64,000 nt of DNA from Terriglobia bacterium (GTDB taxonomy: Bacteria > Acidobacteriota > Terriglobia > Versatilivoradales > Versatilivoraceae), in the NCBI GenBank assembly GCA_022452285.1, contig JAKUNG010000002.1:21716-85715 (forward strand), written 5' to 3'. The notes beneath the pieces were generated by a model, which was not told where the DNA came from, did not search any database, and saw only the letters and a program-made list of their open reading frames with translations. A program made the translations under genes and the position numbers. Below are positions 20,374 through 24,060 of this stretch, in pieces; the stretch's first letter is position 1; each line of letters starts with the position of its first letter.

Positions 20374-20793
20374 TTACTCTCCAATGAATTGAAGAACAAC
20401 CTCTCTATTTCGAGGCTTATTGTCAAAATCAATAAGGATTACTTGCTGCCAAGTGCCCCTCATTAAATGTTTACTCCTAAAAGGAATCTGTAATGAAGGA
20501 CCGAGAAAAGCAGCTCGCATATGAGAAAATCCATTACCATCCCCCCAACGAGCATTATGAGCATACTGATCTGACTCGGGGAAAATCCTCTCAAGGGCAT
20601 TCTTCATATCCTGAACACACCCTGGTTCATATTCAATAGTTGTTAATCCGGCTGTTGATCCTGGAATAAACAGACTGACAATACCGGTATTAATATCCTG
20701 CTCAACTAGTATTTCCTCTACCTTGTTAGTCAAATCAACTACATCACTGTATCCATTGGTTGAAACAGTGATCGTTTTAGTTTGAACTGCCAT
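20374..20793 (-). CDS. YjbQ / UPF0047 family protein
   Basis: 139 residues of the secondary thiamine-phosphate synthase (YjbQ, UPF0047) family, a small trimeric protein found almost everywhere. It matches the core: FIPGSTAGLTTIEYEPG, then GDGNGFSHMRAAFLG and a C-terminal RGTWQQVILIDFDNKPRNR. Family members have weak thiamine-phosphate synthase activity in vitro, but the real role is unsettled. The start has GGGGAT 8 bases upstream. It lies 61 bases after the start of the dapF-like gene on the same strand, so it could be the last gene of that group. Confidence 0.88.
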   Translation of the reverse strand: MAVQTKTITVSTNGYSDVVDLTNKVEEILVEQDINTGIVSLFIPGSTAGLTTIEYEPGCVQDMKNALERIFPESDQYAHNARWGDGNGFSHMRAAFLGPSLQIPFRSKHLMRGTWQQVILIDFDNKPRNREVVLQFIGE

Positions 20794-20854: not shown

Positions 20855-21715
20855 TTACAAATTTTCTTTGTAATATTTTCCTTCAAAAACTAAATGTGCA
20901 GCACCAGTAAGTGATAAGTTATTTTCACTATTCCAACAAACCTCTGAAGCCCCTCCAGAGCTTTCAACCTGAACCTTCCGTTCCGTAAAACCAGCTAGTA
21001 CGCTAGCAACCAGAGCGGCACATGCTCCAGTTCCAGAGAAATTAGTTTGACCTACACCCCGTTCCCAAAAACGGACTTCAATTTTCTTTGGATTTTTAAC
21101 TTGAATAAATTCAACATTCGTCCGGCTAGCAAAACCTGGATGAGATTCTATTTTTTTTCCTAAGGACATCCAGTCTAAGGAATTTAAATCGTCGACAAAA
21201 AGCGAACAATGCGGATTTCCTATGGATGAAACAATAATCTTATAATTCGATTTACCAATCTTTATCTGATCATGATTATTTGTTAAACCAGCCTGACTTG
21301 GAGTATAACCCATTCTCTTGAGGTCTAAAATTGGCTCTCCCATCTCTTGATAAAACGAATATTTTGGAAAGTTTGACGAAATATACTGAAGCCGTTTAAG
21401 ACCAGCTTTTGTGTTTATATAGATACTTTTATTCGAGTCATGTCCTCTATGAATTAGGAGCGCTGCCAAACAACGTAATCCATTTCCCGACACCTCTGCC
21501 TCAGTACCATTGGAATTAAAAATTTGCATTGATGCTGTAATCTCTGAAGACAAACCTTCTTTATCAAAAAAAATCACACCATCTGCTCCAACGCTAAATC
21601 TACGTTTACAAAAGTTCTTAGCAAACAGGGAGTAATCATTTTTGGAAATTTGAGTCGAGTTTACCACCATAAAATCATTACCGAGCCCATGTAACTTTGC
21701 GAAACAAATAACCAT
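20855..21715 (-). CDS. Diaminopimelate epimerase homologue lacking both catalytic cysteines
   Basis: 286 residues of DapF fold. FAKLHGLGNDFMVVN, FNSNGTEAE, SIGNPHCSLFVDD and ERGVG are clear DapF landmarks. In DapF enzymes (for example Haemophilus influenzae Cys73 and Cys217) one catalytic thiol sits in CGNGxR and the other in CGSG or CGTG. Here these are Ser76 (EVSGNGLRC) and Ser227 (NFSGTGAC), and the usual substrate-binding Glu of GxGET is Gln223. Both serines and the glutamine are confirmed in the DNA (TCG, TCT, CAA). It probably does not racemise DAP by the two-thiol mechanism; a changed isomerase, like the cysteine-free PhzF relatives, is possible. No other lysine gene is adjacent. Confidence 0.8.
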   Translation of the reverse strand: MVICFAKLHGLGNDFMVVNSTQISKNDYSLFAKNFCKRRFSVGADGVIFFDKEGLSSEITASMQIFNSNGTEAEVSGNGLRCLAALLIHRGHDSNKSIYINTKAGLKRLQYISSNFPKYSFYQEMGEPILDLKRMGYTPSQAGLTNNHDQIKIGKSNYKIIVSSIGNPHCSLFVDDLNSLDWMSLGKKIESHPGFASRTNVEFIQVKNPKKIEVRFWERGVGQTNFSGTGACAALVASVLAGFTERKVQVESSGGASEVCWNSENNLSLTGAAHLVFEGKYYKENL

Positions 21716-21829
21716 TCTTAACTCAAATAGAAGGTATAGAAAGAGTTTAAATTTTTTTGATTTTCTAAACGGTGCAGGTCTTAAATCATCCTATTATATC
21801 TTGAAGATTTAAACAAAAATTTCTACCTT

Positions 21830-22729
21830 TTAAAATTCAGTCAATTGTTTAAATTGGAGAAAACGTTCTTCGATCTCTGAATACTTAAGGCTTATCAACC
21901 GATTCAGGCTAAATTCCTCTACATTAAAGGAAGCTAAAACTGAGCCATATATTACAGCTCTCCTTAACGTTTGATTATTTATTTCACCAGATTTCGCCAA
22001 GAATCCTACAAAACCTCCAGCAAAGCTGTCTCCAGCTCCTGTTGGATCAAGAACGGCACATAGAGGATAAGCTGGTGCACTAAAGATTGATTTAGAGTCA
22101 TACATTGAGACTCCATACTCACCCTTTTTTACCACTAGGACCCGCGGACCCCACTCAATAATTTTTTTTGCAGCCACATTTAAATTGTGTTCATCTGTAA
22201 GCATTCTTGCTTCGCCATCATTAATAATTAAAATGTCTACTAATTTAAGAACTTCTCGAAGTTCAGGCAGCCTAGATTCAATCCAATAATTCATCGTGTC
22301 ACAAATAACAAGTTTCGGCGATTTCATCTGGGCAACCACCTGTTTTTGCAATAAAGGATCAATATTTCCTAAGAAGACAAAGTCTGTATTTTGATAACTA
22401 TCAGGAATTTCAGGCCTGAAGTTTTCAAAAACGTTTAATTCAGTATTTAAAGTTTTCGCCTCATTAAGAGCAGTTCCATATTTTCCCTGCCATCGAAATG
22501 TTTTACCTTCAACTCTTTGAAGACCCTGAATATTAATATTGAATTTTCTAAACATATCCAAATTTTCTTCTGGAAAATCCTCCCCAACTACAGCTACCAT
22601 TTGGACCAGAGTGAAAAACCTTGCGGCCAAAGAAAAATAGGAGGCTGAACCTCCTAAAACCTCATTCACTCTTCCTAAAGGAGTTTCTACACTATCAAAA
22701 GCAACTGACCCTACAACCAAAACTGACAT
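21830..22729 (-). CDS. PfkB-family carbohydrate/nucleoside kinase
   Basis: 299 residues of ribokinase fold. The N-terminal VLGGSASYFSLAARFF corresponds to PfkB signature 1 and LDPTGAGDSFAGGF (Asp228 to Asp234) to signature 2, with Asp234 as the catalytic base. AAAGGAG precedes the ATG by about 11 bases. It lies 20 bases after the methylthioadenosine phosphorylase gene, so a role with the products adenine/adenosine or a sugar phosphate is likely. Adenosine-kinase-like activity is a reasonable guess. Ribose or another sugar is equally possible on sequence alone. Confidence 0.82.
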   Translation of the reverse strand: MSVLVVGSVAFDSVETPLGRVNEVLGGSASYFSLAARFFTLVQMVAVVGEDFPEENLDMFRKFNINIQGLQRVEGKTFRWQGKYGTALNEAKTLNTELNVFENFRPEIPDSYQNTDFVFLGNIDPLLQKQVVAQMKSPKLVICDTMNYWIESRLPELREVLKLVDILIINDGEARMLTDEHNLNVAAKKIIEWGPRVLVVKKGEYGVSMYDSKSIFSAPAYPLCAVLDPTGAGDSFAGGFVGFLAKSGEINNQTLRRAVIYGSVLASFNVEEFSLNRLISLKYSEIEERFLQFKQLTEF

Positions 22730-22748
22730 TTTTCGTCGTCTCCTTTAA

Positions 22749-23621
22749 TTAAACTGAATTTATATATTTTCCAACTAGTAATTGAAGTTTTTTAAGAGTC
22801 TCCTTCGGGATACTAGAGTGATCAGTCAGAATGGCAGATTTTAACGCTGATCGACATTTACATTCGGGCCCATCATCAGGTAGGGTTCCTATCGTTGCCC
22901 TAATTAAATTTTGGGCATTTTCACTATTCTTATTTAATACTTCAATAACTTGATCAACTGTTACAGCATCATGATCAGGATGCCAGCAATCATAATCTGT
23001 AACTAGTGCTATAGTCGAATAACAAATTTCAGCTTCTCGGGCTAATTTTGCCTCTTGAAGATTTGTCATTCCAATAATGTCCATATTCCAGCTGCGATAT
23101 AGATTTGATTCTGCAAGGGTTGAAAATGCGGGTCCTTCCATACATAAATAAGTTCCACCACGTTTAATTGAAATTGAAAGTGGTTTTGAAGCCTCCACTA
23201 TTTTTGTGCCCAAACTAGGGCAAACTGGCTCTGAAAAGCCAATATGAGCTACCAAGCCTTCTCCAAAAAAACTTGAAACTCTTCCTCGAGTTCTATCAAA
23301 AAACTGGTCTGGAAGAATTATATCCAGAGGTTTATGTTCATCTTTCAACGACCCAACAGCACTTGCAGAAATAATGCTTTCAACTCCTAACATTTTCATG
23401 CCATAAATATTGGCTCGAAAATTCAAATCCGAAGGAAGGATACTATGTCCACGTCCATGTCTCGCTAAAAAGACCACTGATTTCCCTTCAATCTCTCCAA
23501 TAACAAAAGCATCCGATGGTGATCCAAAAGGGGTTTTAAGTATAATTTCCCTAGTCTTTTGAAGACCTGCCATTTGATACAATCCACTCCCGCCTATGAC
23601 TCCAATCCTGATAGCTTCCAA
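22749..23621 (-). CDS. mtnP: S-methyl-5'-thioadenosine phosphorylase
   Basis: 290 residues, trimeric purine phosphorylase family. Splits methylthioadenosine (from polyamine or homoserine-lactone synthesis) into adenine and methylthioribose-1-phosphate. [11 protein letters not shown] and [21 protein letters not shown] bind phosphate; [19 protein letters not shown] and [17 protein letters not shown] follow the family order, and the TDYDCW segment with its aspartates indicates preference for 6-amino purines (MTAP rather than guanosine/inosine phosphorylase). The start is TTG at 23621 with GGAGG 7 bases upstream. Other methionine-salvage genes (mtnA and so on) are not visible here. Confidence 0.9.
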
Positions 23622-23658
23622 GGAAATACCTCCAAAATTTTATCTTGAAAATAGGTTT

Positions 23659-24060
23659 TCAACTAATACCCTCTTCAACCAATTCAATCAAAACTCCATT
23701 AGTAGATTTAGGATGAAGAAATACAACTTTCTGTCCCTTATATCCTGACTTAGACACCTCTTCTAATACCTCAAGACCAACTTTCTTTAATGCTTTTATT
23801 TTTTTTTCTATATTTTCGACCCTAAAACAAATATGGTGAACCCCTTCCCCACGTTTATCCAAAAATTTACTGATTGGCGATGATTTTTCTGTTGGTTCCA
23901 ACAGCTCAATTTTACTTTCTCCTATCGGCAACATAACCATTCGCACCTTATGTTCCTTAATAATAGTAGGTTTTTCTATTTTAAGACCCATACCTGCATG
24001 GTATTTCACTGCTGCATTCTCTAGGGATTTAACTGCAATACCAATGTGATCAATTATCAT
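23659..24060 (-). CDS. mce: Methylmalonyl-CoA epimerase
   Basis: 133 residues, VOC-fold protein with two beta-alpha-beta-beta-beta modules. It inverts (R)- and (S)-methylmalonyl-CoA in propionate or branched-chain amino-acid breakdown. The metal ligands are visible as His5 (DHIGIAV), His75 or His76 (VHHICFRV) and Glu126 (LIELVEEG), plus a mid-protein ELLEP strand. The length and the VEN-K pattern match short bacterial epimerases closely. It leads the minus-strand group mce-mtnP-pfkB-dapF-like. No methylmalonyl-CoA mutase or propionyl-CoA carboxylase is in the window. The AGGGG site is very close (about 4 bases) to the ATG. Confidence 0.9.
   Translation of the reverse strand: MIIDHIGIAVKSLENAAVKYHAGMGLKIEKPTIIKEHKVRMVMLPIGESKIELLEPTEKSSPISKFLDKRGEGVHHICFRVENIEKKIKALKKVGLEVLEEVSKSGYKGQKVVFLHPKSTNGVLIELVEEGIS

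Follow-up and report, generated by a model that had tools for sequence, protein, structure and literature searches.

According to our analysis, the window (the whole stretch of 64,000 nucleotides analysed here) encodes on its reverse strand a homologue of the DAP epimerase DapF in which serine stands at both catalytic cysteine positions. The protein is a DapF by sequence, fold and contacts, but not by the defining two-cysteine mechanism. On balance, we lean towards the view that it is a DAP epimerase ortholog with a hydroxyl pair in place of the thiol pair. It occupies the same pathway slot as canonical DapF, and we infer that catalysis would be by serine. A wider proposal, which we advance more tentatively, is that the Ser/Ser pair may epimerise an unactivated amino acid alpha-carbon without a cofactor, that it may be the usual DAP epimerase in a large part of the phylum, and that it may have had at least two origins, one of them with Cys/Ser relatives. 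The literature searched, with few subscription papers among it, contained no description of a natural Ser/Ser DapF. The gene and the codons discussed below are as follows.

20855..21715, minus strand: Ser/Ser DapF homologue, 286 aa (profile matches, AlphaFold model, PDB match)
21677..21679, minus strand: codon 13, Asn, proximal amine contact (Anabaena Asn13; alignment, PMC12039745)
21515..21517, minus strand: codon 67, Asn, distal contact (Anabaena Asn66; alignment, PMC12039745)
21488..21490, minus strand: codon 76, TCG, Ser at catalytic Cys73 (H. influenzae) or Cys75 (Anabaena); alignment, Ser invariant in 125 Ser/Ser rows
21215..21217, minus strand: codon 167, Asn, distal contact (Anabaena Asn164; alignment, PMC12039745)
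21116..21118, minus strand: codon 200, Asn, distal contact (Anabaena Asn197; alignment, PMC12039745)
21059..21064, minus strand: codons 218-219, Glu-Arg, the kept distal substrate-binding pair (Anabaena E215/R216; alignment, PMC12039745)
21047..21049, minus strand: codon 223, CAA, Gln, a variable site and not the substrate Glu (alignment)
21035..21037, minus strand: codon 227, TCT, Ser at catalytic Cys217 (H. influenzae) or Cys224 (Anabaena); alignment of 125 rows

The assignment to DapF with an intact fold, already made in a sequence-only reading of this DNA, is borne out by the profile matches, which lie well above the cut-offs for both TIGR00652 (226.6 bits, cut-off 114.65, E 3.7e-67) and PF01678 (165.5 bits, cut-off 34.7, E 6.4e-49), and by an AlphaFold model (pLDDT 95.5) in which the two-domain fold of DapF is present. 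The top PDB match of the model is Anabaena DapF 9mro (TM 0.90), and the nearest structures are the liganded Anabaena and Arabidopsis enzymes, at a TM of about 0.9. PF01678 is the sole family matched by the protein, which gives no profile match to PF05544 (proline racemase / hydroxyproline epimerase) or to PhzF; the fold match to PhzF is distant, at 12-16% identity.

At the catalytic sites, the CGNG of canonical DapF is replaced by SGNGLRC, and its CGSG or CGTG by FSGTGAC. The positions of Cys73 and Cys217 are thus held by Ser76 and Ser227, as that reading had claimed from the codons TCG and TCT; codons and alignment agree, and every homologue read from the same class carries the same residues, which puts the pair far beyond chance. 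In the AlphaFold model, the two serines directly precede the helices 77-89 and 228-240, and as a rule the catalytic residues of the DapF fold sit where its two central helices begin, at their N-termini (PMC11602996). Ser76 is encoded by TCN in most rows and by AGC in 19 rows from several families, and the use of both at this site suggests either that serine is selected for or that it arose separately. The dN/dS among close relatives (0.15-0.29) indicates purifying selection. The alignment revealed no Lys or His newly fixed near the active site of the Ser/Ser group as an obvious activator of serine. The His of the NPH motif is replaced by Gln in many Ser/Ser members, Ala is found at position 85 in place of a conserved Arg, and a Trp usually stands ahead of the Glu-Arg pair.

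The substrate contacts are retained. In the inhibitor-bound structure of the Anabaena enzyme, Asn66, Glu215, Arg216, Asn164 and Asn197 hold the amine and the carboxylate at the distal end (PMC12039745), and every one of these residues has its equivalent in the window protein, as do the further Anabaena contacts G76, N77, G225 and T226 (here G77, N78, G228 and T229), so that the DAP-contact set is complete. Conservation of N13, N67, N167, N200, E218 and R219 amounts to 98-100% in the 125 Ser/Ser rows. In these rows N67, G77, N200 and E218 never vary, and N13, N167, R219 and G228 hardly ever do. The proposal that Gln223 replaces the substrate-binding Glu does not stand, since the true Glu-Arg pair is E218/R219, which nearly all homologues keep; at position 223, the active Anabaena enzyme has Ile and the Ser/Ser group has E, P, Y, K, H or R.

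The genome from which the window derives (3.24 Mb, completeness score 100%, contamination 7%) is a fragmented assembly. A search of it for a second, canonical dapF, as the sequence-only reading had advised, found none, the window gene being its sole PF01678 gene. The genes dapB, dapA and dapD lie adjacent on contig C10, and the MurE of this genome passes the DAP-ligase model and carries the DNPR motif. No Ddh was detected in the class (61 genomes), and a Ddh bypass of DapF was rejected on this ground; the window gene is the sole dapF of a DAP-making genome without Ddh. LysA is absent from this genome and from all seven genomes of genus g2 and is present in most others. Given that its own genome has no LysA, meso-DAP would here serve the wall and not lysine.

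Some further observations concern these genomes. In the window's genome (G000) and in genus g2 (G001, G004, G007-G011), the best LysA match scores about 100 bits and falls mostly on ORFs of about 670 aa that resemble arginine decarboxylase, yet DapB is present in all of them except G011. The MurE proteins of genus g2 (L317, L323, L328) have DNAR in place of the DAP-type DNPR. Separate from DapF, G000 encodes a PF05544 proline racemase-family protein with both cysteines (contig C34, 52090-53034; L342), whose nearest model is trans-3-hydroxyproline dehydratase, below the cut-off; this type of protein occurs in genera g1 and g2, which have no LysA, but not in g3 and g4.

We identified DapF in 52 of the 61 genomes of the class; motifs were read for nearly all of the 52, and every one read was Ser/Ser. 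In the phylum as a whole, a DapF match was obtained for 280 of 297 genomes, almost always a single one. Among 164 typed genomes of the phylum, a set biased to high-scoring matches whose proportions are no census, 113 have Ser/Ser only, 42 Cys/Cys only, 2 Cys/Ser only and 4 both, the rest being fragments. Ser/Ser and Cys/Cys DapF are mutually exclusive in distribution with the exception of these four genomes, all of one genus. The exchange is visible within single families: in f36, genus g77 is Cys/Cys and genera g152, g161 and g164 are Ser/Ser, and in f35, genus g194 is Cys/Cys and genus g76 Ser/Ser. A plasmid collection yielded 115 records with a DapF match at less than 60% identity, counted by similarity irrespective of the catalytic residues.

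A tree of 166 DapF proteins, built by a quick method with the two catalytic sites masked and with SH-aLRT as its only support, groups most Ser/Ser proteins together, across well-supported branches from a phylum-specific Cys/Cys group characterised by the motifs GVPH and ERGVEGET. Nested in the Cys/Cys clade are two Cys/Ser proteins (L197, L237) and one Ser/Ser protein (L243), each the sole DapF found in its genome; because of this nesting, the sequences suggest that the change from Cys to Ser probably occurred more than once. A Ser/Ser subtype with the motif SGSS (L175, L187-L191 and the protein of genome G035) forms a separate branch. In genus g71 of family f31 (L175, L187-L191, L267-L272), some species have two DapF homologues, a divergent Cys/Cys copy (CSNG, CCGTG) and a Ser/Ser copy of the SGSS subtype.

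The window gene has the following neighbours.

20374..20793, minus strand: YjbQ / UPF0047 protein, downstream neighbour (TIGR00149, 91.7 bits)
21830..22729, minus strand: PfkB-family kinase, conserved upstream neighbour (PF00294; same order in several families)
22749..23621, minus strand: mtnP, S-methyl-5'-thioadenosine phosphorylase (NF005657, 458.5 bits; order conserved)
23659..24060, minus strand: mce, methylmalonyl-CoA epimerase (TIGR03081, 155.3 bits; order conserved)

Profile matches confirm the three neighbours mtnP, PfkB kinase and mce that had been named before. The order mce-mtnP-PfkB-DapF (20855-24060 in the window) is kept in family f1; families f3, f4 and f8 have it too, interrupted by insertions. 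A membrane glycosyltransferase-like protein or MgtC is often inserted ahead of DapF. This conserved arrangement says little about function. The earlier argument from the neighbours therefore stands as to the conserved order and is weak as to what follows from it, since in other members of the group DapF lies beside ldcA and mpl or between murE and dapL. In families f7 and f9, a Ser/Ser DapF adjoins ldcA and mpl, and the f9 mpl tested is the meso-DAP tripeptide ligase. In G035, the sole DapF is a divergent Ser/Ser copy between murE and LL-DAP aminotransferase (TIGR03542, 614 bits); the cluster (locus L135, 9423-16428) comprises a lysA-like gene, murE, the SGSS Ser/Ser DapF-like gene, the plant-type LL-DAP aminotransferase, dapB and an ArgE/DapE-like gene. 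Clear DapL was found in G035 only; an LL-DAP aminotransferase proposed for f9 from TIGR03540 matches was rejected, the f9 protein being alanine transaminase.

The sequence-only reading had left a choice between a non-DAP isomerase and a changed mechanism. The latter is favoured by the lack of a second dapF, by the presence of dapA, dapB, dapD and a DAP-type MurE, by the kept DAP contacts and by the same one-per-genome slot as canonical DapF; the non-DAP isomerase is less supported. Besides the lack of a newly fixed Lys or His and the laboratory mutants described below, two observations count against a Ser/Ser DAP epimerase: the SGSS Ser/Ser copy beside a divergent Cys/Cys copy in four genomes of one genus, and family f6, where six of seven genomes have no DapF. 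In six of the seven f6 genomes (G016, G024, G031, G038, G044, G050), LysA and a DAP-type MurE are present, and dapA, dapD, dapE and dapB occur in those examined (loci L129-L131, L136, L146); the same six gave no DapF even at a PF01678 threshold of E <= 1, and no Ddh. Since f6 has the DAP pathway without DapF, some unknown DAP epimerase exists at least in this family, and it might be more widespread. A divergent protein of DapF fold was considered for this role and rejected, as the weak PF05544 matches read in f6 resemble the PhzF type (EDPATGSA motif, by eye); such a protein is also carried by G056, a genome with DapF.

The alternative that survives best is that the Ser/Ser protein has DAP, or a peptide containing it, as its ligand and performs other chemistry, such as a slow elimination or a step of peptidoglycan recycling, and that an unknown, non-homologous enzyme epimerises LL-DAP throughout the phylum. 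Family f6 gets by without DapF, the usual neighbours of DapF are not lysine genes, and in f7 and f9 it adjoins ldcA and mpl. Laboratory mutants also speak for it: single Cys-to-Ser changes strongly lower the activity of HisR (PMC11602996), and Cys-to-Ser mutants of PddB lost most activity, for which the hydroxyl pKa of about 16 was named as the reason (PMC8225329). These mutants, together with the lack of an evident compensating basic residue, are a serious chemical objection to catalysis by serine. We nevertheless consider this alternative unlikely, because it sits poorly with the mutual exclusion between Ser/Ser and Cys/Cys DapF, seen even within one family, with the retention of the complete DAP-contact set and with the one Ser/Ser copy located inside a murE-dapL cluster.

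Improbable in our view is a catalytically dead protein that senses DAP or binds a partner protein, much as E. coli DapF also binds the RNA pyrophosphohydrolase RppH. Both catalytic thiols are indeed gone and structures of the RppH-DapF complex exist (6d13, 6vck), but 125 sequences retain Ser at both sites and draw on both families of serine codons, which would not be expected of a dead protein, nor would a swap with the active form. It is also quite improbable that the protein is a DapF-derived racemase for another substrate, of the histidine, diaminobutyrate, O-ureidoserine or glutamate type. A number of DapF homologues do act specifically on other amino acids (PMC11602996, PMC8225329); the known ones, however, keep two cysteines, whereas here the distal DAP contacts are what is kept, so that neither the two cysteines nor the histidine-type pocket of HisR/CntK is found. 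Moreover, the equivalog TIGR00652 is passed by a wide margin, and DcsC (7vdy) matches the protein less well than DapF does in both the sequence alignment and the fold search. The fragmented assembly and its contamination might suggest an artefact (of sequencing, assembly or contamination) or a pseudogene in decay, but the relatives refute this, as family members and the phylum share residues and synteny and dN/dS is well below 1.

Returning to the Ser/Ser epimerase, the enzyme would convert LL-DAP to meso-DAP without a cofactor, for peptidoglycan in this organism and also for lysine in relatives with LysA. Ser76 and Ser227 would serve as base and acid, made more acidic by the helix dipoles and the NH groups of the backbone, and the same carboxylate cradle as in DapF would hold the carbanion.

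In PLP-independent amino acid racemases, the removal of a proton of pKa about 29 is explained by a thiolate. If the Ser/Ser proteins are epimerases, the reaction depends mostly on the scaffold rather than on the thiol, and there are DapF enzymes beyond the reach of thiol-reactive inhibitors; if they are not, much of the phylum relies on an unknown DAP epimerase. Annotation pipelines mask this question, since the Ser/Ser proteins score above the equivalog cut-off for DapF.

Among known systems, DapF itself (TIGR00652; Anabaena 9mro, Arabidopsis 3ejx, H. influenzae 1gqz) shares with the window protein the family, the fold, the DAP contacts, the single copy and a genome that makes DAP and peptidoglycan; the window protein differs in the two serines, in Ala85 for Arg and in the usual Trp before Glu-Arg. 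Laboratory Cys-to-Ser mutants of DapF and HisR (2q9h, 2q9j, 9cr1, 9cr6) share the fold and carry Ser at one of the catalytic positions, but they are single mutants, those of HisR strongly impaired, whereas both serines of the window protein are natural and conserved. The proline racemase superfamily, with its trans-3-hydroxyproline dehydratases and hydroxyproline epimerases, has a related two-domain fold, with the difference already given that the window protein does not match PF05544. Some PF05544 members are said to have only one of the two catalytic cysteines. Finally, the racemases DcsC, HisR/CntK and PddB have the DapF fold and are cofactor-independent in the same way, but they are Cys/Cys enzymes with other substrates and weaker similarity to the window protein.
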